Positions 7,001-44,600 of a stretch of DNA of 64,000 bases are shown here, one piece after another. The stretch's first letter is position 1, and the number at the start of each line of letters is the position of its first letter. A program made the translations under genes and the position numbers. The notes beneath the pieces are model-generated. The model worked only from the letters and a program-made list of their open reading frames with translations, did no database searches and was not told the DNA's origin. The DNA is from Owenia fusiformis (lineage: Eukaryota; Annelida; Polychaeta; Sabellida; Oweniidae). The stretch covers positions 34,199,524 to 34,263,523 of the forward strand of contig CAIIXF020000006.1 in the NCBI GenBank assembly GCA_903813345.2, written 5' to 3'.

Positions 7001-10000
7001 ATTGGTCAAAACCGGGTCACATGTCGTGGGATATCTGGCGATATTCAATGGCAATGCTAATCAGATAAGACAACCGTGAGATATCTAGCGATATCCCACA
7101 CTCCTGGGAATTTTCAAAGAATTTGTTTTCGTTCAGTGTAAATAATTTAGTTCAGTGTAAGTCAAAATGGCAGACGAACCGAGTAGATTCAATGTATTTC
7201 AATGTTAACCTATGACTTAATAATATTAGGGATGTTTAGCTAGACAGTGATATAATAAAACAAATATTTCACTCTATTTTCGGTGAATACCTGTAGCACT
7301 TTCACAAGGTGATATTCCACTTGCCCTTTGGGCTTCGCGGAATATCACGTGTGAAAGATGTACAGGTATTCACCTCAATAGAGTGAAATATTTGTTCAAT
7401 ACATTAACATTAACCTAATTTTAAAATACCCCCTCCTGGTTGCAATCAGTAAAGTGTATCCAATTGTTACAAAAGACAAAATTAAAAAAACTAGGTGTCC
7501 AATATCACAATAGTGTCACAATATCACAATAATATCATAATAATATTACGATAATATCACAATATCATAATACTATCACAATATCACAATAATATCAAAA
7601 TAATATCACCATATCATGATAATATCACAATAATATCATACAAATATTACAATAATATCACAATATCATAACAATATCACAATATCTTACCTTGCACAGT
7701 ACAACTATGTAATCTTTTAGTGCAGAAAGATGTTCACCCATGATGTTTTGGTGATGTGCAATTTCCTGTCGGAGGGAGTATGCCAATGTTGATAGAAGAT
7801 CTTGCATGTGAGCGCCCATTGTCTTACTATAAATATATTTAGATTTGTTTCATAGATTTCATATCTTCACCACAGTGCTACTTGGGAAAGACAATATGGT
7901 GGCACACAGACTTCAAACTTGAAGAAATAGATACAGTGGATAAATTGTGGTCAAATATTTTTAAAATTCTAATTGTTTTGTATTAAGCCAGTGGCTCTAG
8001 AAGACATGATAATGTGAAAAATATCCATGTGCACATGATGCAGCAAGCAGTTTATCCATTTTGATATGGAATGTCTTACCTTGTTGCTATGGGCTTCTGT
8101 TTGAAGTGGACTAGTTGTCTTTGAGACTCAGATTCTGTGTGTTTAACACCTATCAGATCTTTTAAAGTAACTACTATGTCTTGCCTCTCAGTATCATCTC
8201 TGAAAGATAAACCAGAACAATATATCAATTTAAAGAAAGGGGAAAGAGTGGGAGGGCACAATTTCTATATTAATAGATAAGTAGATAAAGGCAGGTGCAT
8301 GTCAGGTACTATTATATAAGTGTTCACTATCAGCAAATAAAATACAATAATAACTGTTTTCAAGAAGGGTAATTCAAGTGATCCTGGAAATTATCGTGGA
8401 CTATTTATATCAGACTGCTTGTCAAAATTGTTCTCCATAATAATGAATAATCGTTTATATAACTATGTTCAAGAAAATCAAATGTTACAGGAAAACCAAA
8501 TTGGCTTCAAGAAAAAGTCACGAACCACAGACCATATGTTTATTATTCGTACGCTAATTGACAGATTTATACACTTTGAGAAAAAGAAAATGTATATTTG
8601 CTTTGTAGATCTAAGAAAAGCATTCGACACGATATGGCATAAGGGACTGTATCTCAAACTTCTCCAAGCAGGAATTCGAGGTCATTTTTATCACATGGTA
8701 AAACACATGTATACTAATTCAATGGCATCAGTTAGAATTAACAGTAACGGTGACCATACTGATATCTTTAAATGTGAGAGGGGGGTTAAACAGGGGGACC
8801 CACTCAGTCCATTAATGTTTAATATTTACATCAATGATGTTGTTGAAGAATTAACACTTGAATCAGACTTAAAATTACAAAAAAAAAATAAGTTGCCTGC
8901 TATTTGCAGATGATTTAGCCATAATTACTGCAAATAAAACTGATATGGACATAAAATTGAAAAAATTAAACAATTATTGTAAACAATGGAACTTAGATAT
9001 CAATACTGATAAAACTAAAATTGTAATGTTTAATAAAAGTGGTAAACGATGTAATGATATATTCTACATTGGGGACCAGGTAATTGAAAACGTATCAAAG
9101 TATACTTATTTGGGTATGGAATTCCATGCCAACGGATCGATGAAACAAGCTGCAATCTTTATTAAAGAAAAAGCAGAAAAGGCGAAATTCAGTATGCTTA
9201 CACATGGTGATATTAACCTAACTTTGTGCCTGAAATTATTTGACATATTAGTAAAACCAATTTTATTATATGGATGTGAAATCTGGGGTGCTGGTCTAAT
9301 AACTATAATAAAGATCTTCTGAAAAATAAAGATTTTGGCCTTGAAATGAAATATGACAAGTCACTTCCACCGGAATTACTACATCTATCTTTTTTGAAGT
9401 TTCTATTAGGGGTGCATAGAAAAACGAGTAATTTAGCTACGATGGGTGAGTTAGGTAGATTCCCTCTGTTTATCAATATATTTTACCAACAAGTTAAATA
9501 CTTAGATCATATAGAAAATGAAGGAACGAGTTCATTACTAATTAATGCATATGCAGATAGTATTGAACTATCAAAAGTTCATAATCAACCATCATGGTAC
9601 TATGACATTGATAAAATAATGGCATATGTTCAACCACAAGATAAAAATTACATTAAAAGTAAACCGCTTGATATTAAGAAAATCCTTGAAAAAAGATATA
9701 TAAAATTTTGGGAAAAAACTGTCAATGATAATAAAGGGAAATTAGAATTTTTGAATAATATCAAACAACGATGGGGAAAAGAACCATATTTGAATGTAAT
9801 AAAGAACGCCGAACATAGGAAATCTATGACGCGATTAAGAATAAGTGCACACAATTTAGAAATAGAGCGAGGAAGGTATACAAGACCAATAGTCCCGAGA
9901 GATCAAAGAAAATGCAAATTATGTAAAATCACCACTGGTACGGAAATTCATTTTATTTTTGAGTGCCAAAAATTGGAAAAAATGAGATATGAATACTTTG

Positions 10001-13000
10001 ATACGTTTAACTCGATTTGCCCAAATCTAACTGTATTGACTACCGAAGAAAAGGCTAATTATATGTTTAATGCTGAGGGTAACATGTGTATCACCTTTGC
10101 AAAATACCTTTATGAAATAATTGAAAAGAGATCAACAACTATATTATCAATATAAATATATACATGTAGGTGTAGGGCTGTAGGCTAATAGTAGTTGTTG
10201 GTATATATCTAATGATCAGTCAATCACATTATATTGTCATTATATGCCATGTAAAATTTGCATTGTATGTTATTGTAATTGTATGTATAGTTTTAGTTTT
10301 ATTTTATCATGTTTATTTGCTGTACACTCACCCGAAAGGGATTTTTAGTACAATAAAGCATTGAATAATAAAAAAATAAAAATAAAAAAAAAAAACATGT
10401 AAAGATTGTAATGCTCTAATGCTGAAAAGTAGGAGACCAGACCATGTTGCTGTGTAGTATATTCATATTAGATAAGAGTAAATAGAAAAAAGACAACTTA
10501 CTCTCCCATACGTTTCCAATTACCCTGCCTTGATATAGCAAATATTGCAGGATAGTCCTCAATCTGGAGTTTCAAGTCAGGTCTGGTGTCTTCCAGCATA
10601 CGTCTCACATGTAGAGTTTTGAACTGAGACAAGTCTAGCATTACCTGTAATGGAACAATAAGTCCTGTATTAAAATAACCAGTTCAATGGAATATCTCAC
10701 ATGTAGGGATTTGTGCCGAGACAAGTCTAGCATCACCTGTAATGGAACAATAAGTCCTGTAATAAAATAACCAGTTCAATGGAATATCTCACATGTAGGG
10801 ATTTGTACTGAGACAAGTCTAGCATCACCTGTAATGGAACAATAAGTCCTGTATTAAAATAACCAATTCAATGGAATATCTCACATGTAGGGATCTGTGC
10901 CGAGACAAGTCTAGCATCACCTGTAATGGAACAATAAGTCCTGTATTAAAATAACCAGTTCAATGGAATATCTCACATGTAGGGATTTGTGCTGAGACAA
11001 GTCTAGCATCACCTGTAATGGAACAATAAGTCCTGTATTAAAATAACCAGTTCAATGGAATATCTCACATGTAGGGATTTGTACTGAGACAAGTCTGCAT
11101 CATCTGTAATGGAACAATGAGTGCTGTATTAAAATAACCAGTTCAATGGAATATCTCACATGTAGGGATTTGTACTGAGACAAGTCTCGCATCACCTGTA
11201 ATGGAACAATAAGTCCTGTATTAAAATAACCAATTCAATGGAATATCTCACATGTAGGGATTTGTGCTGAGACAAGTCTAGCATCACCTGTAATGGAACA
11301 ATAAGTCCTGTATTAAAATAACCAGTTCAATGGAATATCTCACATGTAGGGATTTGTACTGAGACAAGTCTAGCATCACCTGTAATGGAACAATAAGTCC
11401 TGTATTAAAATAACCAATTCAATGGAATATCTCACATGTAGGGATCTGTGCCGAGACAAGTCTAGCATCACCTGTAATGGAACAATAAGTCCTGTATTAA
11501 AATAACCAGTTCAATGGAATATCTCACATGTAGGGATTTGTGCTGAGACAAGTCTAGCATCACCTGTAATGGAACAATAAGTCCTGTATTAAAATAACCA
11601 GTTCAATGGAATATCTCACATGTAGGGATTTGTACTGAGACAAGTCTAGCATCACCTGTAATGGAACAATGAGTGCTGTATTAAAATAACCAGTTCAATG
11701 GAATATCTCACATGTAGGGATTTGTACTGAGACAAGTCTCGCATCACCTGTAATGGAACAATAAGTCCTGTATTAAAATAACCAATTCAATGGAATATCT
11801 CACATGTAGGGATTTGTGCTGAGACAAGTCTACCATCACCTGTAATGGAACAATAAGTCCTGTATTAAAATAACCAGTTCAATGGAATATCTCACATGTA
11901 GGGATTTGTACTGAGACAAGTCTAGCATCACCTGTTATGGATCAATAAGTCCTGTATTAAAATAACCAGTTCAATGGAATATCTCACATGTAGGGATTTG
12001 TGCTGAGACAAGTCTAGCATCACCTGTAATGGAACAATAAGTCCTGTATCAAAATAACCAGTTCAATGGAATATCTCACATGTAGGGATTTGTGCTGAGA
12101 CAAGTCTAGCATCACCTGTAATGGAACAATAAGTCCTGTATAAAAATAAACAATTCAATGGAATATCTCACATGTAGGGATTTGTACTGAGACAAGTCTA
12201 GCATCACCTGTAATGGAAAAATAAGTTCTGTATTAAAATAACCAGTTCAATGGAATATCTCACATGTAGGGATCTGTGCCGAGACAAGTCTAGCATCACC
12301 TGTAATGGAACAATAAGTCCTGTATTAAAATAACCAATTCAATGGAATATCTCACATGAAGGGATCTGTGCCGAGACAAGTCTAGCATCACCTGTAATGG
12401 AACAATAAGTCCTGTATTAAAATAACCAATTCAATGGAATATCTCACATGTAGGGATTTGTGCCGAGACAAGTCTAGCATCACCTGTAATGGAACAATAA
12501 GTCCTGTATCAAAATAACCAATTCAATGGAATATCTCACATGTAGGGATCTGTGCCGAGACAAGTCTAGCATCACCTGTAATGGAACAATGAGTGCTGTA
12601 TTAAAATAACCAGTTCAATGGAATATCTCTCATGTAGGGATTTGTACTGAGACAAGTCTAGCATCACCTGTAATGGAACAATAAGTCCTGTATTAAAATA
12701 ACCAGTTCAATGGAATATCTCACATGTAGGGATTTGTACTGAGACAAGTCTAGCATCACCTGTAATGGAACAATAAGTCCTGTATTAAAATAACCAGTTC
12801 AATGGAATATCTCACATGTAGGGATTTGTACTGAGACAAGTCTAGTGTAAGTAATATAACATTGGTTAAAATACATTGATGAAATATCAAGGGCAGGTTT
12901 AGTAATGAATAAAGTAATGTTGTTCAGTTTTAAATTGGCTCAGTATAGCGAATACGGTATGTTAGTATACTTTAAGGAAAAGAGAGCTTGAGCGACTTTC

Positions 13001-16000
13001 AATTATCATTTGGCATAAGCGTGTCTGATTTTGGCATACTCATGTCGCATTCTGGCATAATCGTTCATATCATAAGGAAAAGCAAGTTTGCTTCCACACA
13101 AGGTACTTGTTCCTTGTCTTGAATGTTATTGTACCCATGTAATCGTGTATCTTAAGAAGTATGATGGGATGTGTCGGGCTCGTTCCAGACATTATGTAAA
13201 CAATCTTCTCACAGAATCTCTTCCACATTGCATTCCAAAGGAGGTTGATTTATGCAATGTAATTCTTAGTAGTTTGTGTGTAATCTATTTGGGAAACCTT
13301 CTACAGAAGTGGGAAAGTACCTCTTGTGGAATTCGGCTGTAAATGGTGAGGCAAAACGTCTTGAGAAACAGAATCTATTACCTTAGAGGCAAAGCGGAGT
13401 TTGAAAGTCAATATCAGTGTAGTAGACTAAATGTCTGGGTATAAAATGTGTACAAATGAGACAGTGGGACACATAATGGACTGCGGGTTTTAGGAAAGAT
13501 AAGAGCAGGTTAGAGAGGGCAAGATAGAAAAGTAAGATGGGTTTGGAAAGTGGAGGAAAGTTTACGATCTGAAGAAATGGAATTGTGTAGAACTTTGTAC
13601 AATTGGAAATTAGAAAATAAAGTGAAGAAGAAAATTATATAAAGTCTCGGCCTTAATGTTTAGGAACTTTAGATCCGTTTACCAATAAGGGACACCAATG
13701 ACATTGATCATAAAAGACTTTAAGTAAAAATGGACATTGGTCAAGAAGAACATTGGTGGTCATTTTAAATTAACGGACACTAGCATCACCTGTAATGGAA
13801 CAATAAGTCCTGTATTAAAATAACCATTTCAATGGAATATCTCACATGAAGGGATTTGTACCGAGACAAGTCTAGCATCACCTGTAATGGAACAATAAGT
13901 CCTGTATTAAAATAACCAGTTCAATGGAATATCTCTCATGTAGGGATTTGTACTGAGACAAGTCTAGTATCACCTGTAATGGAACAATAAGTCCTGTATT
14001 AAAATAACCAGTTCAATGGAATATCTCTCATGTAGGGATTTGTACTGAGACAAGTCTAGCATCACCTGTAATGGAACAATAAGTCCTGTATTAAAATAAC
14101 CAGTTCAATGGAATATCTCTCATGTAGGGATTTGTACTGAGACAAGTCTAGAATCACCTGTAATGGAACAATAAGTCCTGTATTAAAATAACCAGTTCAA
14201 TGGAATATCTCACATGTAGGGATTTGTGCTGAGACAAGTCTAGAATCACCTGTAATGGAACAATAAGTCCTGTATTAAAATAACCAGTTCAATGGAATAT
14301 CTCACATGTAGGGATTTGTACTGAGACAAGTCTAGCATCACCTGTAATGGAACAATAAGTCCTGTATTAAAATAACCAGTTCAATGGAATATCTCACATG
14401 TAGGGATTTGTACTGAGACAAGTCTAGCATCACCTGTAATGGAACAATAAGTCCTGTATTAAAATAACCAGTTCAATGGAATATCTCACATGTAGGGATT
14501 TGTGCTGAGACAAGTCTAGAATCACCTGTAATGGAACAATAAGTCCTGTATTAAAATAACCAGTTCAATGGAATATCTCTCATGAAGGGATTTGTGCTGA
14601 GACAAGTCTAGCATCACCTGTAATGGAACAATAAGTCCTGTATTAAAATAACCAGTTCAATGGAATATCTCTCATGTAGGGATTTGTACTGAGACAAGTC
14701 TAGCATCACCTGTAATGGAACAATAAGTCCTGTATTAAAATAACCAGTTCAATGGAATATCTCTCATGTAGGGATTTGTGCTGAGACAAGTCTAGCATCA
14801 CCTGTAATGGAACAATAAGTCCTGTATTAAAATAACCAGTTCAATGGAATATCTCTCATGTAGGGATTTGTACTGAGACAAGTCTAGCATCACCTGTAAT
14901 GGAACAATAAGTCCTGTATTAAAATAACCAGTTCAATGGAATATCTCTCATGTTGGGATTTGTACTGAGACAAGTCTAGCATCACCTGTAATGGAACAAT
15001 AAGTCCTGTATTAAAATAACCAGTTCAATGGAATATCTCTCATGTAGGGATTTGTACTGAGACAAGTCTAGCATCACCTGTAATGGAACAATAAGTCCTG
15101 TATTAAAATAACCAGTTCAATGGAATATCTCTCATGTAGGGATTTGTTCCGAGACAAGTCTAGCATCACCTGTAATGGAACAATAAGTCCTGTATTAAAA
15201 TAACCAATTCAATGGAATATCTCACATGTAGGGATCTGTGCCGAGACAAATCTAGCATCACCTGTAATGGAACAATGAGTCCTGTATTAAAATAACCAGT
15301 TCAATGGAATATCTCTCATGTAGGGATTTGTGCTGAGACAAGTCTAGCATCACCTGTAATGGAACAATGAGTCCTGTATTAAAATAACCAATTCAATGGA
15401 ATATCTCACATGTAGGGATTTGTACTGAGACAAGTCTAGCATCACCTGTAATGGAACAATAAGTGCTGTATTAAAATAACCAGTTCAATGGAATATCTCA
15501 CATGTAGGGATTTGTACTGAGACAAGTCTAGCATCACCTGTAATGGAATGGAACAATAAGTCCTGTATTAAAATAACCAGTTCAATGGAATATCTCTCAT
15601 GTTGGGATTTGTACTGAGACAAGTCTAGCATCACCTGTAATGGAACAATAAGTCCTGTATTAAAATAACCAGTTCAATGGAATATCTCTCATGTAGGGAT
15701 TTGTACTGAGACAAGTCTAGCATCACCTGTAATGGAACAATAAGTCCTGTATTAAAATAACCAGTTCAATGGAATATCTCTCATGTAGGGATTTGTGCTG
15801 AGACAAGTCTAGCATCACCTGTAATGGAACAATAAGTCCTGTATTAAAATAACCAATTCAACGGAATATCTCTCATGTAGGGATTTGTGCTGAGACAAGT
15901 CTAGCATCACCTGTAATGGAACAATAAGTCCTGTATTAAAATAACCAGTTCAATGGAATATCTCACATGTAGGGATTTGTGCCGAGACAAGTCTAGCATC

Positions 16001-19000
16001 ACCTGTAATGGAACAATGAGTCCTGTATTAAAATAACCAATTCAATGGAATATCTCACATGTAGGGATTTGTGCTGAGACAAGTCTAGCATCACCTGTAA
16101 TGGAACAATGAGTCCTGTATTAAAATAACCAATTCAATGGAATATCTCACATGTAGGGATCTGTGCGGAGACAAATCTAGCATCACCTGTAATGGAACAA
16201 TGAGTCCTGTATTAAAATAACCAGTTCAATGGAATATCTCTCATGTAGGGATTTGTGCTGAGACAAGTCTAGCATCACCTGTAATGGAACAATGAGTCCT
16301 GTATTAAAATAACCAATTCAATGGAATATCTCACATGTAGGGATTTGTGCCGAGACAAGTCTAGCATCACCTGTAATGGAACAATAAGTCCTGTATTAAA
16401 ATAACCAATTCAATGGAATATCTCTCATGTAGGGATTTGTGCCGAGACAAGTCTAGCATCACCTGTAATGGAACAATAAGTCCTGTATTAAAATAACCAG
16501 TTCAATGGAATATCTCACATGTAGGGATTTGTTCCGAGACAAGTCTAGCATCACCTGTAATGGAACAATAAGTCCTGTATTAAAATAACCAATTCAATGG
16601 AATATCTCTCATGTAGGGATTTGTGCCGAGACAAGTCTAGCATCACCTGTAATGGAACAATAAGTCCTGTATTAAAATAACCAGTTCAATGGAATATCTC
16701 ACATGTAGGGATTTGTGCCGAGACAAGTCTAGCATCACCTGTAATGGAACAATGAGTCCTGTATTAAAATAACCAGTTCAATGGAATATCTCACATGTAG
16801 GGATTTGTGGGGAGACAAGTCTAGCATCACCTGTAATGGAACAATAAGTCCTGTATTAAAACAATAACCAGTTCAATGGAATATCTTTCATGTAGGGATT
16901 TGTGCTGAGACAAGTCTAGCATCACCTGTAATGGAACAATAAGTCCTGTATTAAAATAACCAGTTCAATGGAATATCTCACATGTAGGGATTTGTGCCGA
17001 GACAAGTCTAGCATCACCTGTAATGGAACAATGAGTCCTGTATTAAAATAACCAATTCAATGGAATATCTCACATGTAGGGATTTGTGCTGAGACAAGTC
17101 TAGCATCACCTGTAATGGAACAATGAGTCTTGTATTATAATAACCAATTCAATGGAATATCTCACATGTAGGGATCTGTGCGGAGACAAATCTAGCATCA
17201 CCTGTAATGGAACAATGAGTCCTGTATTAAAATAACCAGTTCAATGGAATATCTCTCATGTAGGGATTTGTGCTGAGACAAGTCTAGCATCACCTGTAAT
17301 GGAACAATGAGTCCTGTATTAAAATAACCAATTCAATGGAATATCTCACATGTAGGGATTTGTGCTGAGACAAGTCTAGCATCACCTGTAATGGAACAAT
17401 GAGTCCTGTATTAAAATAACCAATTCAATGGAATATCTCACATGTAGGGATTTGTGCCGAGACAAGTCTAGCATCACCTGTAATGGAACAATAAGTCCTG
17501 TATTAAAATAACCAATTCAATGGAATATCTCTCATGTAGGGATTTGTGCCGAGACAAGTCTAGCATCACCTGTAATGGAACAATAAGTCCTGTATTAAAA
17601 TAACCAGTTCAATGGAATATCTCACATGTAGGGATTTGTGCTGAGACAAGTCTAGCATCACCTGTAATGGAACAATAAGTCCTGTATTAAAATAACCAGT
17701 TCAATGGAATATCTCTCATGTAGGGATTTGTACTGAGACAAGTCTAGCATCACCTGTAATGGAACAATAAGCCCTGTATTAAAATAACCAGTTCAATGGA
17801 ATATCTCACATGTAGGCATTTGTGCCGAGACAAGTCTAGCATCACCTATAATGGAACAATAAGTCCTGTATTAAAATAACCAGTTCAATGGAATATCTCT
17901 CATGTAGGGATTTGTACTGAGACAAGTCTAGCATCACCTGTAATGGAACAATAAGTCCTGTAATTAAATAACCAATTCAATGGAATATCTCACATGTAGG
18001 GATCTGTGCCGAGACAAATCTAGCATCACCTGTAATGGAACAATGAGTCCTGTATTAAAATAACCAGTTCAATGAAATATCTCTCATGTAGGGATTTGTG
18101 CTGAGACAAGTCTAGCATCACCTGTAATGGAACAATGAGTCCTGTATTAAAATAACCAATTCAATGGAATATCTCACATGTAGGGATTTGTGCCGAGACA
18201 AGTCTAGCATCACCTGTAATGGAACAATAAGTCCTGTATTAAAATAACCAATTCAATGGAATATCTCTCATGTAGGGATTTGTGCCGAGACAAGTCTAGC
18301 ATCACCTGTAATGGAACAATAAGTCCTGTATTAAAATAACCAGTTCAATGGAATATCTCACATGTAGGGATTTGTGCCGAGACAAGTCTAGCATCACCTG
18401 TAATGGAACAATAAGTCCTGTATTAAAATAACCAATTCAATGGAATATCTCTCATGTAGGGATTTGTGCCGAGACAAGTCTAGCATCACCTGTAATGGAA
18501 CAATAAGTCCTGTATTAAAATAACCAGTTCAATGGAATATCTCACATGTAGGGATTTGTGCCGAGACAAGTCTAGCATCACCTGTAATGGAACAATAAGT
18601 CCTGTATTAAAATAACCAGTTCAATGGAATATCTCACATGTAGGGATTTGTGCGGAGACAAGTCTAGCATCACCTGTAATGGAACAATAAGTCCTGTATT
18701 AAAACAATAACCAGTTCAATGGAATATCTCACATGTAGGGATTTGTGCCGAGACAAGTCTAGCATCACCTGTAATGGAACAATAAGTCCTGTATTAAAAT
18801 AACCAGTTCAATGGAATATCTCACATGTAGGGATTTGTGCCGAGACAAGTCTAGCATCACCTGTAATGGAACAATAAGTCCTGTATTAAAATAACCAATT
18901 CAATGGAATATCTCTCATGTAGGGATTTGTGCCGAGACAAGTCTAGCATCACCTGTAATGGAACAATAAGTCCTGTATTAAAATAACCAGTTCAATGGAA

Positions 19001-22000
19001 TATCTCACATGTAGGGATTTGTGCTGAGACAAGTCTAGCATCACCTGTAATGGAACAATAAGTCCTGTATTAAAATAACCAGTTCAATGGAATATCTCTC
19101 ATGTAGGGATTTGTACTGAGACAAGTCTAGCATCACCTGTAATGGAACAATAAGCCCTGTATTAAAATAACCAGTTCAATGGAATATCTCACATGTAGGC
19201 ATTTGTGCCGAGACAAGTCTAGCATCACCTGTAATGGAACAATAAGTCCTGTATTAAAATAACCAGTTCAATGGAATATCTCTCATGTAGGGATTTGTAC
19301 TGAGACAAGTCTAGCATCACCTGTAATGAAACAATAAGTCCTGTATTAAAATAACCAGTTCAATGGAATATCTCACATGTAGGGATTTGTGCCGAGACAA
19401 GTCTAGCATCACCTGTAATGGAACAATAAGTCCTGTATTAAAATAACCAGTTCAATGGAATATCTCACATGTAGGGATTTGTGCGGAGACAAGTCTAGCA
19501 TCACCTGTAATGGAACAATAAGTCCTGTATTAAAACAATAACCAGTTCAATGGAATATCTCACATGTAGGGATTTGTGCCGAGACAAGTCTAGCATCACC
19601 TGTAATGGAACAATAAGTCCTGTATTAAAATAACCAGTTCAATGGAATATCTCACATGTAGGCATTTGTGCTGAGACAAGTCTAGCATCACCTGTAATGG
19701 AACAATAAGTCCTGTATTAAAATAACCAGTTCAATGGAATATCTCACATGTAGGCATTTGTGCCGAGACAAGTCTAGCATCACCTGTAATGGAACAATAA
19801 GTCCTGTATTAAAATAACCAGTTCAATGGAATATCTCTCATGTAGGGATTTGTACTGAGACAAGTCTAGCATCACCTGTAATGGAACAATAAGTCCTGTA
19901 TTAAAATAACCAGTTCAATGGAATATCTCACATGTAGGGATTTGTGCCGAGACAAGTCTAGCATCACCTGTAATGGAACAATAAGTCCTGTATTAAAATA
20001 ACCAGTTCAATGGAATATCTCACATGTAGGGATTTGTGCCGAGACAAGTCTAGCATCACCTGTAATGGAACAATAAGTCCTGTATTAAAATAACCAATTC
20101 AATGGAATATCTCACATGTAGGGATTTGTGCCGAGACAAGTCTAGCATCACCTGTAATGGAACAATAAGTCCTGTATTAAAATAACCAGTTCAATGGAAT
20201 ATCTCACATGTAGGCATTTGTGCTGAGACAAGTCTAGCATCACCTGTAATGGAACAATAAGTCCTGTATTAAAATAACCAGTTCAATGGAATATCTCTCA
20301 TGTAGGGATTTGTGCTGAGACAAGTCTAGCATCACCTGTAATGGAACAATGAGTCCTGTATTAAAATAACCAATTCAATGGAATATCTCACATGTAGGGA
20401 TTTGTGCCGAGACAAGTCTAGCATCACCTGTAATGGAACAATAAGTCCTGTATTAAAATAATAACCAGTTCAATGGAATATCTCACATGTAGGGATTTGT
20501 ACTGAGACAAGTCTAGCATCACCTGTAATGGAACAATAAGTCCTGTAATAAAATAACCAATTCAATGGAATATCTCACATGTAGGGATTTGTGCTGAGAC
20601 AAGTCTAGCATCACCTGTAATGGAACAATGAGTGCTGTATTAAAATAACCAGTTCAATGGAATATCTCTCATGTAGGGATTTGTGCTGAGACAAGTCTAG
20701 CATCACCTGTAATGGAACAATAAGTCCTGTATTAAAATAACCAGTTCAATGGAATATCTCTCATGTAGGGATTTGTGCTGAGACAAGTCTAGCATCACCT
20801 GTAATGGAACAATAAGTCCTGTATTAAAATAACCAGTTCAATGGAATATCTCACATGTAGGCATTTGTGCTGAGACAAGTCTAGCATCACCTGTAATGGA
20901 ACAATAAGTCCTGTATTAAAATAACCAGTTCAATGGAATATCTCACATGTAGGGATTTGTGCTGAGACAAGTCTAGCATCACCTGTAATGGAACAATAAG
21001 TCCTGTATTAAAATAACCAGTTCAATGGAATATCTCACATGTAGGCATTTGTGCTGAGACAAGTCTAGCATCACCTGTAATGGAACAATAAGTCCTGTAT
21101 TAAAATAACCAGTTCAATGGAATATCTCACATGTAGGGATTTGTGCCGAGACAAGTCTAGCATCACCTGTAATGGAACAATAAGTCCTGTATTAAAATAA
21201 CCAGTTCAATGGAATATCTCACATGTAGGGATTTGTGCTGAGACAAGTCTAGCATCACCTGTAATTGAACAATAAGTCCTGTATTAAAATAACCAGTTCA
21301 ATGGAATATCTCTCATGTAGGGATTTGTGCTGAGACAAGTCTAGCATCACCTGTAATGGAACAATGAGTCCTGTATTAAAATAACCAATTCAATGGAATA
21401 TCTCACATGTAGGGATTTGTGCTGAGACAAGTCTAGCATCACCTGTAATGGAACAATGAGTCCTGTATTAAAATAACCAATTCAATGGAATATCTCACAT
21501 GTAGGGATTTGTGCCGAGACAAGTCTAGCATCACCTGTAATGGAACAATAAGTCCTGTATTAAAATAACCAGTTCAATGGAATATCTCACATGTAGGGAT
21601 TTGTACTGAGACAAGTCTAGCATCACCTGTAATGGAACAATAAGTCCTGTAATAAAATAACCAATTCAATGGAATATCTCACATGTAGGGATTTGTGCCG
21701 AGACAAGTCTAGCATCACCTGTAATGGAACAATAAGTCCTGTATTAAAATAATAACCAGTTCAATTGAATATCTCTCATGTAGGCATTTGTGCTGAGACA
21801 AGTCTAGCATCACCTGTAATGGAACAATAAGTCCTGTATTAAAATAACCAGTTCAATGGAATATCTCACATGTAGGGATTTGTACTGAGACAAGTCTAGC
21901 ATCACCTGTAATGGAACAATAAGTCCTGTATTAAAATAATAACCAGTTCAATGGAATATCTCACATGTAGGGATTTGTGCGGAGACAAGTCTAGCATCAC

Positions 22001-25000
22001 CTGTAATGGAACAATAAGTCCTGTATTAAAATAATAACCAGTTCAATGGAATATCTCTCATGTAGGCATTTGTGCTGAGACAAGTCTAGCATCACCTGTA
22101 ATGGAACAATAAGTCCTGTATTAAAATAACCAATTCAATGGAATATCTCACATGTAGGGATTTGTGCTGAGACAAGTCTAGCATCACCTGTAATGGAACA
22201 ATAAGTCCTGTATTAAAATAACCAGTTCAATGGAATATCTCACATGTAGGCATTTGTGCTGAGACAAGTCTAGCATCACCTGTAATGGAACAAGAAGTCC
22301 TGTATTAAAATAACCAGTTCAATGGAATATCTCTCTGTGTATGGGGCACTCTCTATGGAATAGTCCCATTGAACTGTATGTTAATGAACCAACTCTGTAA
22401 GTAACACATGTACAAAAGGAACTTGTTTAACCATGGCAGTGGGTGTTTCATTTACTGAGTTTCTACTGTAATAGTAAATGCAAAGAGGGGGGGGGGGGGG
22501 GACTTTTCCTTTTTTTAATAGCATATTTGAATTCAGTGAAACATTTTTTACAATAAAACTTTGATATATACTCTAATGTTATTTAAATCATTTTCCATGA
22601 CTTTTCAACTTTTCTAAAAAAAAAGCTTTTGTTTTTTTTTGGCGATCACCCCCCCTGACTGAAAGCTGACTACGCTCTTGTATATTATATTTAATGAATA
22701 TAGACCGAAGAGCAGGGGCAATATTGTCAAATACACCCGCAGGGCTAGGCACAAACATTTTCTGTAAGCTTTCGAAAGCTTTTGTGCCTAGCCCTAAGGG
22801 GTGTATTTGACGATATTAAACCTGCTCTGAGGTCTATATTACGATTCGAGCATGAACTCACCAAAATGTTTCGAATATTCATTATGGTCCGCCATTACTA
22901 CGACCCAACGTTATGACATCAAACATTATACGTATTACCAGAGGTATTCTTCAAGAATTTACCCCGGGTAAAATGTTGACTTTGTTCACAATTTATAGAA
23001 TGTGTGAATACAGTCATGTTCGAATTATTTATATTTTTGTTTCCAATTTAATCAAAAATATCATTTTCCTTCATACTTCGGGCCCAGAAATTTTAATTGT
23101 AAAATATTTAGGCACATAACTGACGTAACGGTTAGCCCCTAAGGCAATACATACCTGTCGTCCAGTAAGTGACACAGGAGATTTTTCTTCCACAATCACA
23201 ACAGCAAATTCTGTGCCTTTAGGAGCTGTCTTCCAAATATCCTCATCTTTTCTGAAAATAGTTAGGTATTCCATAAATGGTACCAAAGATTACATTTTTT
23301 TACGAAAATGGCAGCTACATAATCCAGAAGGCATAACGCTATAAAATTTGAACTTAATCTGAACAGATGGACGAATGGACGGATGGCTTCTCTATATCCC
23401 TACCGGACTTCATTTGGTGGGATAATTAGACTCAAGATACACTGTAAGAATAAAACTGGGTAGAGGGTATTGATGCCATTTATTTTACCTCAACTTGCGA
23501 AGGACTGGCCATTCTGGAGGATCTTGCTTGTACTCTGTGGAGTTCTGATACCTTTCAATGAGGTCAAGTATATGTTCCCTTATGGTGTCAGCATCTGTGA
23601 ACTTCTGGTCAATTATGAATCCGTTCATGTTGGTTTTTGTGTGTGGTTTGAAATACTGAAAATAAGTGAAGAGTTAATGTATACTCAGGTAAATTCTTTC
23701 TTTAATGTAAATTTTAGTCCTTCTATGATTCACCTTTTAAACCTACATGTATGGTGAAGTTGGTAACTTCTCACCTTTTTAGAATTTTAAGTTTAAAATG
23801 TTTATATTAAATTTTCATAATCTTGAGACTTTGTGGCATAATTTAAAAATGTTAGTCCTAAGACATGCACAATATGTCAAGTGAAGTGGTTATTAATAAT
23901 AATTTTCTTTATTATTGCAGTTCAGTCCACAAAAATTCAGATAATGGTAAAATGATTATTTGTGAAAATGTTCAAGATAAAAATATGTATGTATGATTAA
24001 TTTCGGTGTGTCATGGTCATGATCTGTATACTGCGTGCATCATGAAAAATTTCCAAATTTTCTCTGCTTGAGACATCATTGCTGAAGATACAGAAGTCAC
24101 ATTTTCAAAAGTTAAAAATTAACAAAATGACAAATGCCAAAAATAAACAATCAATAATTTAATTAATTACTCAACCACTAAATCAATTACTCAGATGCGA
24201 GTAGGTAGTTACCAGTTTCGCCACCAGGTGGCTGATTCGGGGGAAATAACATGGCAGGGTATTACAAAATTCCCTTAAACTTGAATATGCATCAGTTTTA
24301 GTGGTTCACTTTTCAAATTACCCTAATGTATGTGATAGTTATACAAAATATGTCCGGTAAAAGAAAATATTATCTGCCCAACACAAAAAAAGATATTTCA
24401 CTTTTTGTAGTTTTACAACATTGGGTCTATGGGGAATCTCCCCGACCTAGAAGTCACATTTTTAAAGAAAATTAAATTTTCAAAGTTGATAAACTCTTTT
24501 CAAAACCACATTTTTAGATGTAATTTTATATGTAGATTCCAAATATGACATCAGTTTGACTGAATTGTGAATTTATTTATTATTTCTACTCGCATCTCGG
24601 ATATTGAAATTCCAGAAATATACTTGTGACTTATACTCGTTCATTTGTCTAAAGGGGATATTGATTCCATTTAAATAATTGAAGTGAAATTCAGTCAAAA
24701 CATTCTTCAGAAATACAACAATGTATCACAATATGCTGATGCCTCATTGGAAACATGATAAGTACATTTTACGCTTAATTGCACATTAAAATAAATGCTC
24801 CTCTTCATCTATTGTATCAAAATTAAACATTTATATTCAGTTTTCATAAATGATCAACTGTATAAATATTTGAAGTAAAACAGTAAAAGTACTTTACAAT
24901 AACACATCAAAAGTTATTTCTAGTTAACTATTCAACTGATATTCTATATCATGAGTTATTAAGTACATTTATTCAATAGCATTAGAACAATACATCATGA

Positions 25001-35600: not shown

Positions 35601-38600
35601 TAGTATTAAGTCTTAATATGGTTGCTATAGCAACATGGGGGTAGGGGTGGGCGGGGCAGGTACCAATTTTTCTAATTATGAAAAGATTCAAAGTGTTATT
35701 TTATTAATATTTCTTTCATCTAAATGATCAAAATGTTTGAGAAATTGTTAAATTTATTCAACATGATGCTTACCGAGTACAAATAATGACATTTAGCACT
35801 GTGATGTCATAATACAACAGTTCAATGGTCACAAATTCTAATACAGTCAAGGTCAAGAAATTGCAAAAATGGCTGCAATTCTCACCTGATAACAGAAGGA
35901 TTTGCGTTTAGTGGCCTAATTTCATACTTTACTTGGACTCAAAGCCACGCAAAACTTATGCCACCATGAAAAGATTATTTTAAGAGTATAAACCAGATAG
36001 AACTACAATTATGAGGTGGCAGAAGAGATTTAAAAGAGATGACTGGGCCCTGGATGACAACTCCAAACATGGGAGACAAAAACTCCACAAGTCAAAGTGG
36101 AAGAATTTGCCAAGAGTGTTTGACCTGACAGGCATCAAAAGTACATAACATGCAAAGGGCAATATTTTGAGAAAATATGAAATGGGACACTGTGCAATAT
36201 TCATCAATTAAATCTAAGATGTGCTCATAGAAATTTAGTATCTTACAATATATTTTTGAGCCAACTTCTTATAGCTACACAAAATGGTATTGTTGATTAA
36301 TTATTTCATATTTTCAATTTTTTTTATTCCATTTGACGTGATTGTATAACCTGCCCCGCCCTACCCAAACACACCAACTTGATTTTATTATAACATCAAT
36401 ATAGTTTTATCAGTCAACATGAAAATTTGTAGAATAATCAAAATGTATCTAAGGAAGATTTACTGAAAATTTCATGGAAAAATATCAATTATTGATTAAG
36501 TTAGAGCATATAGTGCATTACTTCTGGGACAACCCTCGTATATATAACAATTGTAGAAACTATTTCTCATTCATCAATTATCATGTAATTAGAAAGTGTT
36601 ACAATGCTTAAACTTGTAGATGATTTGAGAGTTACTTTTTGAAAATTGGCATTACAGCATATCTTGCCATGCTTATATCTTTCTTTCAACATGTCATTAG
36701 ATGTGATTATTATGTCACCATTGACATATTGGTATAGTTTCCAACTTTAATGTGGATGGTGGTAGGCGGTCGGTGGTTGGTGTTCAGCGGTTGGCATCTG
36801 TAACAAATGGCAAATTTTGCAGATTAATGCCTAATGTTTGATTTGATTTGATTTGAAAACTATATTGTTAAACCTATTGGAGATTAAACTTAAGTGTTGA
36901 CATGGGTATTTAGAAATAAGTCATTAAGCAAGGAGATGGGATACAACTGTGTTCTACTTATACAAGACCAACCATAAATTGATTGAAAAAGTATATATTT
37001 TATGATTTTTGGGAAACCATTTAGTAACTACATGTAGTGTAAAGATTACAGTTCCAGTGAATATGTTCCGCATATATATTGGATTTTATATAATCCTGTT
37101 TGTCATATACATGTACATGTACAGGTCCAAGGCCAAGGGGGAGCTGAGGGAGCGGTAGCTCTACCCCTGGCTGGAAATTCTTCCAAAATCATGCAGTTTT
37201 TTGAGCATTTTTCCCATGATTTTTTAGCCAAAACTGTAACCCCCCTTGAAAAAAGCTTCCCCCTTAGTAAAAGCTGGCTACAGCCAAGCATGTACTACCT
37301 GGAAGTGTTCTCAAATTTATTCCAATTTGGATATAAAATTACTTCAAATCACCTCATTTGCCAAAGAAGTCTTTGAGCACCATCCAATGTCAATTTTATA
37401 TTAAAAAGGCAGGTTTGTTATTGCAAGCTCTTTTAGACAGCTCTTACTTAAGTTTTAATAATCATTTGACCACAAAAACAAATGCGTTTGCTTGGCCAAT
37501 ATGTTATCTTCAATAAGAGGCAATAGAATGAAAGTAAAGTCGAACGGATTATCTCTTAAGCTGTCATTGTTGTTGTTTTGTTGTTTTGTTTTTTATTATC
37601 ATGGTAATTTTTTTTACAAAGATTTTTCAAAAAGTTGCCGAAGCAAACATTATTGGCAACTATACAAATAAACACACTACAATAAAATTATACAAAAATA
37701 GACAGATTTTGACAATACAAAAATGGGCTGCTGGTGGTTGGTTGGTAGTTTGGTTGGAGTAGGTGAAAAGAATAGGTAGCATGATCTTATTCAACAAGTT
37801 TGATAGATTCATTAATAAAGGTACTTGTGATAGACAAAACTTCTCTATTTGTTTCAATATTTAAAAAGTTAATTCCATACAAAAGAGTTTCAATTTATCA
37901 TCTTGTTTTAAATTGTTAAAGGAGAAATTTATGTCATGCATGGTAAATAATCCATTTAGCCTGTCAAGCATTTGGCGTCTTATATCATTGTTGAGGCGAC
38001 AGTGTAAGAGGAAATGCTTTGTGGTTTGTTTTAAACCACATCTACATACATCAGAATCGATAGTTGTAAAAGAGTGGGCCATTTTATGTGCATTTAACAA
38101 GAGGCCAACACGTAATTGGTTCAGTTTGATTTCTAAATTACGGGGAAGAGATAAATTTTGTGAATTTGTCTGAATATTTTGAAAATTTTGGAAGTGCTTT
38201 TTGATTTGGCCTTTGAAAGAAGAGATAGTAGGCACCTGCCTGAGCTGTAATGGTAAGGAGTCCCAAATTTTAGAAAAAAGGATAGCTCCACTATCCTTGA
38301 ACCTGGTAGAAATATGTAATGGGATGTGATAGGTTGGCCTATCCCTTAACTCTATTCCTATTGGTACAGGTGTCAAAAGTCTAAAAATAAGTCTGATATA
38401 TGAAGGGCACATATTATGTTTTACCTTGAACATTAACACACCTATGTGTGATAATCGTCTGGCTTCTAAAGTTGGCCAGTTTAGAATTTTCAAAAGTTTG
38501 TCGCCATTTGATCCATGCAGAGCTCCAGATACTAAGATTGCAGCTGTATAGTGCAAGGTATCTAGCAATTTTAAGGTTGTTTTGTTACTGCCGTGGTATA

Positions 38601-41600
38601 AAATGTCACAGTTATCGAAGTGTGGAGAAATATAAGAATTGTAAATAAGATCAAGGTGAGCTGACTTTACTTTATTTTTAATGGCCTTTAAGGGATTTAA
38701 CATTTTCTGGACCTTTGCAGTTAGTTCTCTTACATGAACTTCATACGAAAGTGTGTCGTCCAAGTGAAAACCTATGTGTTTGTGGCTATCAACTATAGGA
38801 ATGTTTTGATTTGAGAGGGTCAAAGGCTGGTGAACTGGCTTTGGAGTTCCTATTGTTCTAAAGGTCAAATCTCTGCTCTTCTCAGCTTTAAAGTGCATTT
38901 TCCATAACTGAGACCATTGTTCAAGGGTGTTTAAGTCATTTTGAAGAAGTCTGCTGTTATTTGGAGAATGTTTCATATAGGTGAAGTAAATGGACGTATC
39001 GTCGGCATAAATGTAGCTTCTTGAGTTTAAATTGTCTGGCAAATCATTAATGTATAAGAGAAAGAGCAAAGGTCCCAGGATTGATCCCTGGGGAACACCT
39101 GCATTTATATCATCATGATTTGAATATTCAGTTGAGGAGCCGTTGATAGAAACTCTAATTTTTCTATTTGTGAGGTAAGAACTAATCAATTTTATAAGAT
39201 TATTGCAAAAACCATAACTTCTGAGCTTATGAATAAGTAGTTTATGCGGAACAGTATCAAACGCAGCCGCGAGATAAGCTGTCATTAATCCACCAATCAT
39301 CACCAATTTTCACCAACTTAATTGAAATGTACATGTACTGTAAGTCATGATTTACCTCTGAAAAGGAAAAGTGAGTCCCCTTGGGATTAGGATAATCTGA
39401 AAACAATGGAAACTTGAGGTCCAATATTACATAATTGATCTCCAAAATAACAAAATAGGTAAGGTCAGAGGTAAATCATGACTTATAGTACATTTCTATT
39501 TAGTAGTAAAAATTGACATTTTTGGTGAAAATCGGCTCATAATTGTGGAAAATTGGTGATGATGGGTGGATTAGTGACAGCTAATGAGACAATCCATTTG
39601 ACTTTACTTTCATTCCATTGCCTCTTATTGAAGATAACATATTGGCCAAACACATTTGTTTTTGTGGTCAAATTATTATTAGAACTAAGAAAGAGCTGTC
39701 TAGAAAAGCTTGAAATAACGTACCTGCCCCTTTGGGATATTTTGAATAGACCTTGTGAAATATGTTTTTAACTTTTTAAAGAATTATCATTGTTTAAAAA
39801 GTAAATTTTAAGGAAAACATTTCATACATCTAAGATGCATTGGTATTCTATACATAGCACTGCTAACAATCTATAATTTTCGAATTTACTAAGCTTGTAT
39901 TTGCGAATGCAACCAATGGCTGTTAGCTACCGTATTAACCTAATACTTTATTGCTAATTCATTTGAATATCAATGGAATAGTGGCAGGTATTATTTGTAT
40001 TTAAATGAGTTAAAATCATAAAATAGTTGGTTAATCTGGTAGCTGTTATTTGCATTTGATTATAGTTCAAAAATGTGTTGAAATGCATATTAATAACAAC
40101 CCAAAGATTTTTTTTAAATATTTATTACAGTTCCACAATATGTTATTAATTGGTGAAGTTATTAAGGATTTAAATTTCCGAAATGGGAAAAAATTGTTTA
40201 AATTCTCCCAAATAATATAACCATAAAATAGAAAACTTTATGTTCACAATACTAAACCTGCATATTTGCAGCGAAAATGAACCAGAACATGCAATGACAT
40301 CTCAAACATGCTTTGCAAGAAAGTCAGAAGCCTATTACAATAAGAAATTATTGAATAAAATGAATTGGAATAATCAATTTTAACGATTTAACATATCTAA
40401 ACGAAGGCTTATAATTATTGTTAGCTAACATGGATGAGCTATTGTTATCACCCACTTGTCTGTGCATCTGTCTATTTCCTAAATGAAGTAAAACTATGGA
40501 AGAAAAAATAACAAAAATAAACATGGATAAAGACAAAAGGGAAGGGAAGGTTTACTGGTATAAAAAGCTTTCAATTAATCCACTAATGCGTAATTACAAG
40601 CCTAAAGACCTAAATAAAGCAAGACCAAGGAAAAGAGTACAGGAAGTAAGAAGACCAAGAAAGAAGAAACTAAAAAGAGAAAGAAAGAAAAAGAGGACAA
40701 AGAAAATAACAACATTGACAACAACAGAAATAAATATCCAAGCACAAGGGCCAAATTCCTCCAAAAGTATAATCAATTTGAATTGAAATATTAAAGCCAA
40801 CTACTTTGATTTTATAAGATATCCATAATGTCTAAAATTTTCGCAATGATACAAAATTGCCATCATTTTAATTGTTGAATCATCATTTTTATACATTGTT
40901 GATATCCCTCCATACCTTGCAACTAATGTGAAATTGTGGATAAAGTACAACATTTATGAAAGTATAATGTACACAACATCAGAAATTAGCTTTTCCAGCT
41001 TACTTATGGCCACTGTTTCTCATGATTTACACCGTTTGGATCTTGTATTGACATGACTTTTGACTCTCCTTTTAATACCCTTATAATGCTTAAGCAAAGT
41101 ATGAAAACCTCAGCAATGGTAATTATAGACACTCCAATAAATATTCCAAGACTTCCACCAATCTCTGATATCATAGACCCAAGTTCAAAATCAGGTTCCT
41201 GTTTAATTATTTTTGTCTCTAAATCCTTAAAATACACATTTAAGCGGATAAAATTTTCTCGTAGCCGATCTCCAACTTCTTGTTTCATTTCATTCCACTT
41301 TGTTGTAGTAGCATTGGAATACATGTTTGTGCACAGTGGTTCTATTTGGTCATCGAAAGCTTTATAAACACTGGAGTTGTTATAATTTGGGAGGTGTATA
41401 ATCTTGCGGCAATAAAAGTCAAGTTCTACCCCCTTTTTTGGCCATTGAGATTGCGAGAGTGTCATGTCATACGTGTGGAAGCTGCAGTTGTCTTGGCATT
41501 GACAGTCATCCTGGTCAAGTACAACATCCCAATTGTATTCTGTCATGCCACACTGTAGCTTCTCTATGTCGTAGAGTAGTGTTGTTCTATTTGGATTTTT

Positions 41601-44600
41601 ATCTAACCATTCGTTATATTGAATTTTGTTACAGAATTGTACATTTTCAATATCAGGGTACATTGGTAATGATCCACGTTTACATCCACATGATTTATAA
41701 ACCATCTTCTGGAGACATCTCATTTGACAAACCCGTGTGTTGAATGTGAACCCATCTTCATCTAATTGAGGGTGCTCAGTGCACTCGCCCCAAGGTGGTT
41801 TCATCAATTCACGTCGAGTAACAGACAATGCTACATTAGCTGAATGGCCCTGTTCAATATCAAATCCTTCATTTTCTGGATCTGGTAGTGTCCCTTTCTC
41901 ATGTACGACAACTCTCACGCCTTGACTCCCAGAAGTTGGGTATTCTGGGTTGTATATGGCATATAAATTTTCATCTGTATCTAGGAATATTTGCAGTGAA
42001 AGGCCACCTGTTGGGCCAGTTGTATTGCTATAAGGGTTAGAAAGTGTAGTATTGATGTCATTAAATGTAAAACAGTTGTAATAATGACTATGTATAACTG
42101 AATGCACATCTTCATCAGAACAGGATTTTCCTTGATACATACAGGATGAGATAAAGTCATGTTTCTTATAGCCATATTTTGTGACTGTTGGTACATTTTC
42201 ATAAAATCCATTATAGGTGTACAGTCTGCTGAAGAATTTTTCATATAATTGTTGTCTTTCTGAGGATAACTCCATTAACAATGTTGAATTCTGCTCTATT
42301 TTAACCATATCCGCAAGTAATGTTTGTAATGCAAATATAGATAAATAAGTATCTTCACCGTTGATGGAATCTTGAGTTAGTTCCAAAATACCTTGTTTAG
42401 ACATCTGGGTCAGTGGACATATTGTCACTGAGGGAAATAAAAGATCTTGGCGTTGAACTAACACTCTGTCCTTTGTCTCAAAGAGACTGTACCTGTAGAT
42501 GATTGATGTGACATGGCCCACAGAGGCAAGTGTACTTGCTATACAGAAAATTAACCATGCTACTTTTGTACACATAGATTTTCTTTCATGAATATTTCCC
42601 CAGCCATGGCCAGTCGTAGTTTTTGCAAAGTCACTTAGTAAACTTTTTACTGTCATCTCTTGAATAGTTTCAGTGTTCTTTGTGATTGTTCTTTAAAATT
42701 GAAAAGTACCCTTATTCCAATAATTGTGCTTTAAAGTCACCTGAGTATTGTGATTATGATCCACAAATCCTTGTAGATTATTGATCGTCTTCAATAAGTA
42801 TCACTATGAGAAACCAATGTCACACAGTTGTTGTTTCTGCTGTCAGGTGATACTAACTTTGCTTCTATTGTCAAAGCAAATGAGTTTCACTTATAACAAA
42901 GAAATATTTCCTCATCCAAGTCCTTTGGTTCTGCTTTGGAATTCCAATAATTTCAATTCATATATTTTCCTGTTTGCTTTTTGCAAAGTCACTTATGATT
43001 CTTTCACCATCACATGATTTTGTGTTCACTTCACTTTTCCTTTAATGTTTATTGTAAATATTAAGTCAACTCAATCTCTAATGAAAATACAATAATTCCT
43101 GAAAATCTGATATCTCAATACTTCTCAAATTTTTGAATATATGGCCATTCTTGTTTCAGATTAAATCCCTTTAGGTTAGAGTGAGTTCATAAAAACATGA
43201 TAACTTGTGTATTGATTAAACTGTTGTTAAGTTACATTAGTTTATACTTGATGCATATAATAGGTTGCTATTAGTGAAAGGTACTTTGTTATATTTCTAC
43301 CAAAGCTTTTGAATAATAGCTCACTTCTTACTTATATTTCATTAATTAGCTATTAAATGATTATTAGTCAGTTGGTTCTGAATAAATGGACTAAAAGGTT
43401 TCTATGACGCACAGGACAGGAACATTCTACAATGATTCCACCATTTTACATGTCTTGATGGCTTTGTATTGATACTAGATTATTTATTAATATCTTAATT
43501 GACTAAGTCATGTAGGGATATAGTGAAGCGTTCTGTCCATCTGTCCACCAGTCCTTGATTTAGACTTAATGGTGATACCAAGAGCAACCACTCAAAACAA
43601 GATGTCTGTCTGTTCAGTCAATAGCTGATCATGAAATACTACATGTATAAGACCAGTTCCCTCATGTTTCGTTAAAAGTTGGGAATTGTGTAATTTCTAC
43701 CAACCAACCTACCATACAGGATCTGATTTTAATTGTTGCATGTTTAAATTTCAGATGTATTGTCACAATTTTAGATTTTTTCAATTTGGCGCCACATCCG
43801 AGCAATTTAAAATTTTTGCTTTATTTGTTCTAATTCAAGGTAATGTGAGATGTATATTATACATAAAACAAATGAGGAATAAGTTCATTTTGAAAGCTCT
43901 CAAAGTATATCTTCATTATTCTCAAATAAAAGATATCCAAGAAAAGTAGATTGCAGATATTATGCCTATATTATACGCATGTCAAGGGTATTTTTGACAG
44001 ATTAGCACTCTTGTATAGATCCATGCTTTGTAAAATACAAGATTACTGTTCAAATGCAAAACTCAACCTTTTCTTCCTTGTATGAAAGGTTTCAAGAGTG
44101 TATCCCAAAAATGGTATTGACTATATATTAAGAAATCATTTGGAAATTACCTTATTTGGAATCTTATTTTATTTGTTGGGATATGGGATTTGCTACTCAG
44201 TGGAGCTTCTGTCCAAGGAAGCTATTAAACAGCTTAAAGTTATGTCATCGCAATTATTTAACAAACACATTTAACTATGATTTAGAATATTAAGTATTGC
44301 TACAACTTTCACAATAGGTGATCAATATAAAGTGGGGCATGTGATTAATAAATTCATTAAGATTTTATTTCAGCTGGTAAACACTTACAGTCTTGCACAG
44401 ATGTATGATTGATCATATTGTGTTCCTAAAAGCAGGTGTCCAGAATCCTTACCTCCTTACCGCAGAACTGGCCTGCTTCTAGGGTGTGAGATCTATTTAA
44501 AAAAGCACAATATCAACAGCTTGCAATGAAGGAGTCAACATGATTGAACTTTTCTCGATATTGGATAATTATATTTTATACATACACTAGTATTCTATTA

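Follow-up and report, generated by a model that had tools for sequence, protein, structure and literature searches.

Intron 4 of the QSOX gene in the 64,000-nucleotide stretch of DNA analysed here (the window) is largely occupied by a tandem array whose unit joins the head of exon 5 to the end of the preceding intron, placing 116 copies of the exon 5 acceptor ahead of the real one. We consider it quite probable that this is an exon-boundary minisatellite of the 'mirage' type, which would be transcribed and then removed with intron 4 while the real exon 5 is picked by exon definition. The array itself is most likely neutral. The term mirage, for a tandem repeat spanning an exon-intron boundary, was named in amphioxus Adh3 and the class is also described in amphioxus globins (PMC3087553; this and the other papers cited are used for the passages available from each).

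The array repeats the intron 4-exon 5 boundary of QSOX

The QSOX gene lies on the minus strand of the window, from about 29.3 to 3.3 kb. The peptides of exons 1-5 align with structures of QSOX1 (sulfhydryl oxidase 1; best E 7.4e-44), bearing out the name given to the gene in a preliminary description of this DNA. The protein has thioredoxin and QSOX_Trx1 domains, with an Erv1/Alr domain in its last part, and the alignment with the QSOX1 structures shows no insertion at the join of exons 4 and 5. The window contains no N, has a GC content near 33% and belongs to a 40.8-Mb contig (C6) of a 498-Mb genome in 525 contigs. The features at the array are as follows.

10502-10644, minus strand: QSOX exon 5, authentic copy, 143 nt, of which the first 42 nt (10603-10644) match the unit
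10603-22333, minus strand: tandem array made of 116 units (about 92 bp each) and closed by a terminal partial unit, the 42-nt head of the real exon 5
10645-10694, minus strand: intron tail before exon 5, 50 nt, with 0/50 differences from the array consensus
10645-23154, minus strand: QSOX intron 4, 12,510 bp, 86% array
12843-13779, no strand assigned: dispersed repeat inside the array, about 0.94 kb, with imperfect GTGT... inverted ends
23155-23251, minus strand: QSOX exon 4, placed by QSOX1 protein alignment, ending ...ACTGGACGACAG followed by GTATGT, phase 0

Tandem Repeats Finder (TRF) reported a single array at 10603-22333 with a period of 92 and 90% matches; its figure of 127 copies includes the non-array insert. 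Counting the acceptor motif on the minus strand gave 117, made up of 116 array copies and the real exon 5. Successive acceptors were spaced 92 bp apart in 106 cases and 95 bp in seven, with single spacings of 97, 91 and, across the insert, 1030 bp. The insert divides the array into 23 units next to the exon and 93 beyond it (the split unit included in the 93), close to the 23 and 92 steps of the preliminary description, whose estimate of about 116 copies of a 42-nt exon head with 50 nt of intron is confirmed. Without the insert, the array takes up 10,752 of the 12,510 bp of intron 4.

In the direction of the gene, each unit consists of the 42-nt head of exon 5 followed by the 50-nt intron tail with its acceptor, ending TTCCATTACAG. 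The unit thus crosses the intron-exon boundary, and the authentic boundary is retained at the end of the array. The head of the real exon 5 forms the final unit, as had been proposed, and runs on without a break into the other 101 nt of the exon. The segment 10603-10689, which holds the real exon head, aligns over 87 bases with an array unit at 92%; with an E of 5.4e-28, the homology between exon and array is beyond chance, the first of the objections foreseen. A search of the 498-Mb genome with the 92-bp unit returned 118 matches, all in the QSOX locus, and one with the exon 5 peptide returned a single match, QSOX exon 5 itself; both searches can miss copies. The QSOX_Trx1 profile found exon 5 and one match below the cut-off, on contig C10 and with two stops, which was not used.

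On the other side of exon 5, intron 5 holds a fragment resembling a long interspersed nuclear element (LINE; 8341-10395, plus strand), with a reverse transcriptase domain (E 2.3e-23) and an A-rich tail. It ends 106 bp from the exon.

Splice signals and variation among the units

Splice signals persist in the copies. The acceptor AG is kept in all 116 units, in agreement with the earlier claim, and the GT at the start of the exon in 115. Over the last 11 nt of the intron, 112 units are identical to the real acceptor. A donor-like GTGAGA inside the unit is kept in 79 of the 116 and lost in 37.

The units differ at a mean of 3.3 of 92 positions and fall into 54 distinct types, with weak and local higher-order repeats. 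Their consensus departs from the real exon 5 at 5 of 42 exonic positions and is identical to it over the last 50 intron bases; at exon positions 3, 23, 28 and 30 every one of the 116 units differs from the real exon. Variable columns make up 14 of 42 in the exon part and 20 of 50 in the intron part (Fisher p = 0.52). Variants in the would-be 12 codons are mostly amino-acid changing, giving 15 peptide types among the 115 gap-free units. Because exon and intron columns vary alike and the variants mostly change the amino acid, the decoy splice signals and would-be codons show no sign of selective constraint.

Two further leads on the history of the exon head were set aside. Codon 8 reads F in exon 5 itself and mostly H or Y in the array units; the QSOX1 sequences, whose structures we take to be those of rat, mouse and human, have F, Y or H there, and the change cannot be polarised. 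The sharp homogenisation at the splice junction (0/50 intronic against 5/42 exonic differences), seen also in the inner copies at the kinase exon L046 described below, was first read as gene conversion stopped by selection. It was rejected as proof: an amplified unit with the phase exon copy plus intron would carry that stretch of intron within the array in any case.

How the real exon 5 is probably selected

Only the last copy of the exon head runs on into a 143-nt exon with a GTAAGT donor, and exon definition would act as the selector on this basis. Exon 4 would join the exon-proximal acceptor and the array would leave with intron 4, as protein homology and the amphioxus mirages suggest. Since QSOX aligns without an insertion, the array units are not needed in the mRNA, and the conserved protein implies that exon 4 would usually skip 116 acceptors that are transcribed earlier. 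Other exons of this genome carry boundary repeats of the same build (see below), which supports the mirage interpretation. A survey of alternative sites found that, in large introns, the sites lying nearest to each other across the exon are preferentially paired (PMC9225289). The authors of the amphioxus study found regular splicing undisturbed and proposed a role for mirages in intron gain (PMC3087553), and lancelet mirages with AG/GT signals were likewise reported without disturbance of splicing (PMC3902484).

Several observations weigh against so simple an outcome. The decoy acceptors are as good as the acceptor of the real exon 5, and every decoy is transcribed ahead of it. Donors were scored with a small matrix built from 16 real donors and compared by leave-one-out, with the 127 GT sites in 2,400 nt of intron 2 as background. 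The GTGAGA of the 79 units scores 6.8, equal to or above 5 of the 16 real donors, and only 2 of the 127 background sites reach this value. Because the internal donor of most units scores this high, exon definition may not plainly discriminate against decoy exons. Within one unit, we found no RNA structure that would hide the decoys (z 0.10).

The widest alternative, which we regard as unlikely, gives these signals a function. The 116 equal acceptors, most with a plausible in-frame donor, would compete with exon 5, and decoy use, leading to degraded transcripts or 12-residue insertions, would vary with array length, individual and tissue. Many such arrays would then form a general regulatory layer, or a load.

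A narrower form would have the 116 decoys partly used, yielding early-stop transcripts that are degraded, with copy number setting QSOX output. The decoys do equal the real acceptor over the last 11 intron nt in 112 of 116 units and precede it in the transcript, and in the consensus unit a reading frame continued from a decoy exon runs into a stop 31 codons later. However, the decoy signals are no more conserved than the rest of the unit and no splicing disturbance is reported for amphioxus mirages in the passages available (PMC3087553, PMC3902484), leaving such a brake on dosage with a low probability.

Splicing of the units as 36-nt in-frame mini-exons, from the acceptor to the internal GTGAGA, would add VMLDLSQHKSLH repeats to QSOX. 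Their length is divisible by 3, both ends are in phase 0, and the donor is kept in 79 of 116 units with a score inside the range of the 16 real donors. Such splicing would, however, need exons of 36 nt separated by introns of only 56 nt. The variants are mostly amino-acid changing, 37 units have lost the donor, the internal GTGAGA is also present in the real exon 5, and QSOX aligns without need for an insertion. We consider mini-exons very unlikely.

Assemblies easily mis-size tandem arrays, and an assembly artefact was the other objection foreseen. The sequence has no N, the array holds 54 distinct unit types and a dispersed repeat, the contig is 40.8 Mb long, and independent smaller mirages occur elsewhere in the genome. 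An assembly artefact thus appears an unlikely explanation of the QSOX array, and there is very little probability that the array, or most of its length, arose in this way. Recursive splicing, in which each unit would act as a ratchet point (CAG/GTGATG) and intron 4 be removed stepwise, is very unlikely: AG and GT are juxtaposed in nearly all units (AG in 116/116, GT in 115/116), but this GT is simply the first bases of the exon itself, and the regenerated donor scores a low 4.0, a value exceeded by 13 of the 16 real donors (leave-one-out) and reached or passed by 8 of the 127 GT sites in 2,400 nt of intron 2.

Origin of the array

The outer end of the array bears on how it began.

22280-22345, minus strand: distal array edge; first intron piece 1/50 different from the consensus, outer flank ending AGAGAGA

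GAGA is common to this outer flank (AGAGAGA) and the exon-side end of the unit (GTGAGA), which suggests a single tandem duplication at short homology followed by amplification. Judging from the junctions, both breakpoints would have fallen on GAGA, one in exon 5, 42 nt from its start, and the other in intron 4, 50 nt before the exon. The duplication would have created a second boundary, with one copy free to drift, and unequal exchange or slippage could then have amplified it to 116 units. The authentic exon is left intact as the last unit because one breakpoint is intronic. The dispersed repeat probably inserted during amplification. Elsewhere in the genome, 11 places match it at 92-96% along more than 860 of 951 query bases, and further ones match in part; a TA or CTAG duplication appears to flank it.

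Boundary-straddling repeats elsewhere in the window and genome

The preliminary description had called an array on a live exon boundary unusual. This was too strong: besides the class already named in amphioxus (PMC3087553), the window holds a second example and 3 of 95 exons sampled from the genome carry one.

62299-62622, plus strand: second mirage, donor side; TRF 117 bp x 2.8, unit of exon tail (62299-62384) and 31 nt of intron
7500-7686, minus strand: 11/19/30-bp intronic array, starting 4 nt into QSOX intron 7, beside the exon 7 donor (exon end 7691)

The second mirage sits on a coding exon at 62242-62384, and the donor of its copy 2 is broken (AGATATGT). We take its gene to be PNPLA6/7-like. 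Resemblance to the cNMP-binding domain is weak both for the exon (E 0.052) and for a piece lying 1.3 kb upstream (E 2.9e-4), each below the cut-off; the exon found no match among solved structures.

For the wider sample, 139 kinase matches gave 30 automatic loci and then 55 mostly short exons, hand-picked; the choice passed over some paralogs, most of the long open frames and rows rich in stops. Of 85 helicase matches, 40 entered the sample in their listed order, leaving aside rows with several stops or very long frames, a paralog, small contigs and one overlapping row. The 55 kinase and 40 helicase exons make up the sample of 95, with exon ends taken as the ends of the profile match, which may fall short of the true ends. 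A tandem repeat straddling the boundary was found at 3 of the 55 kinase exons and at 0 of the 40 helicase exons. The same test on block-shuffled loci gave 0 of 475. The three exons, and a fourth from the 30 automatic loci (L025, outside the 95-exon sample), are as follows.

C5:68921-70277: kinase exon L046, presumably PAK-like; acceptor-side repeat of 86 bp x 3.8, donor-side repeat of 71 bp x 2.0
L056: kinase exon; 54 bp x 3.9 on the donor side
L070: kinase exon; 51 bp x 4.8 on the acceptor side
C11:19328197-19331646, at 667-1472: kinase exon L025, presumably LATS-like; donor, then a 23-bp x 35 intronic array

At L046 the copies depart from the real exon in 11 of 60 positions; they have VAIN in place of the exon's VAIK, the lysine of which we take to be the catalytic one. 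In the intron part, its two inner copies show 0/26 differences, against 11/60 in the exon, and the outermost copy shows 10/26. The L025 array has a consensus starting GTAAGT, exact in 12 of about 35 units.

Two more loci were fetched for their duplicated look and stand outside the counts. At L039 (C10:2255000-2259500, about 1900-2210), a kinase exon, by our assumption GSK3-like, is duplicated whole; both copies are open, an intron stretch of about 47 nt separates them, and they are perhaps mutually exclusive exons. The other, L136, a seemingly tandem helicase exon, was dropped for its broken-copy look and stops in all three forward frames.

Arrays with a period of at least 20 make up 3.2% of the 107,346 bases sampled. 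With arrays relocated at random within their own loci, 6.9 boundaries would be covered across the 95 loci; 4 were (P of at most 4, 0.12). Of 16 arrays in the window, 3 touch any of the 19 boundaries considered, where 1.3 would be expected (P of at least 3, 0.10); arrays and boundaries were typed by hand, leaving out short-period rows and those within the big array, and most exons of the other gene are missing. Neither test departs clearly from chance. There is no significant enrichment at boundaries, and the boundary, named as the seed in the preliminary description, need not have seeded the array. The mirages here look like those arrays of a minisatellite-rich genome that happen to fall on splice sites. 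Tolerance of them is probably explained by the intact exon that any duplication with an intronic end keeps at the array's edge.

Relation to known systems

The QSOX array is a very large mirage, of a class already known from amphioxus. As in BflGb6, BflGb9 and Adh3, the units span a boundary (on the acceptor or donor side), many copies carry AG/GT and the authentic boundary is one of the units (PMC3087553). BflGb6 has 6 or 3 units of 150-160 bp depending on haplotype, whereas QSOX has 116 units, each of 92 bp. The amphioxus mirages are reported to splice normally and to be unstable in length (PMC3087553); the QSOX array is known from the sequence of one haplotype. The 60/108-bp repeats of lancelet PGBD5 likewise include the 5' and 3' splice sites of a coding gene, but in few and imperfect copies (PMC3902484).

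Other systems share part of the anatomy. Human internal tandem repeats also sit on exon-intron boundaries, where they alter gene structure and can form novel introns, whereas the QSOX protein appears unchanged (PMC2812944). Minisatellites in intron 1 of earthworm metallothionein are also large arrays filling an invertebrate intron; they lie within it and the available passages mention no exon sequence in their unit, in contrast to that of QSOX (PMC12783039). Intron gain by tandem duplication of AGGT similarly places AG/GT at a duplicated boundary (PMC4974935), but the QSOX copies sit in an existing intron. The QSOX1 alignment, which implies no insertion at the exon 4-5 join, gives no sign of a new intron within the coding sequence. 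Nor are the units tandem cassettes or mutually exclusive exons, which would need a whole exon and a donor in every copy: they hold 42 of 143 nt.

What is new here is the copy number: a single intron with 117 acceptors that compete and are nearly identical. Early experiments on artificial constructs already examined how splicing chooses between duplicated, equal acceptors. QSOX intron 4 offers a natural test of splice-site choice, with 117 acceptors in cis and the wrong ones transcribed first, and could show how far exon definition overrides order and proximity. Among the openly licensed papers searched, we found no array of QSOX size on an exon boundary, and the passages available apply the name mirage to lancelets only, with related boundary repeats in human (PMC2812944). 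The genome sampled here is apparently not a lancelet's: its contigs C1-C12 of 32-62 Mb and the window GC near 33% do not resemble amphioxus, with its 19 chromosomes. Recurrence in this genome suggests that mirages are a possible routine by-product of minisatellite-rich genomes, and the QSOX array points to them as a genome-wide feature, probably outside lancelets. They may be a standing source of new introns and alternative exons.

Other features of the window

A second RVT_1 fragment lies at 37861-39309 on the minus strand. Three long open frames, all belonging to the amiloride-sensitive sodium channel (ASC) family, stand in tandem on the same strand, at 41004-42692, 44775-46466 and 49067-50782 (E 2.8e-69 to 2.4e-72). 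TRF also reported a 445-bp x 3.9 tandem repeat at 53066-54810.

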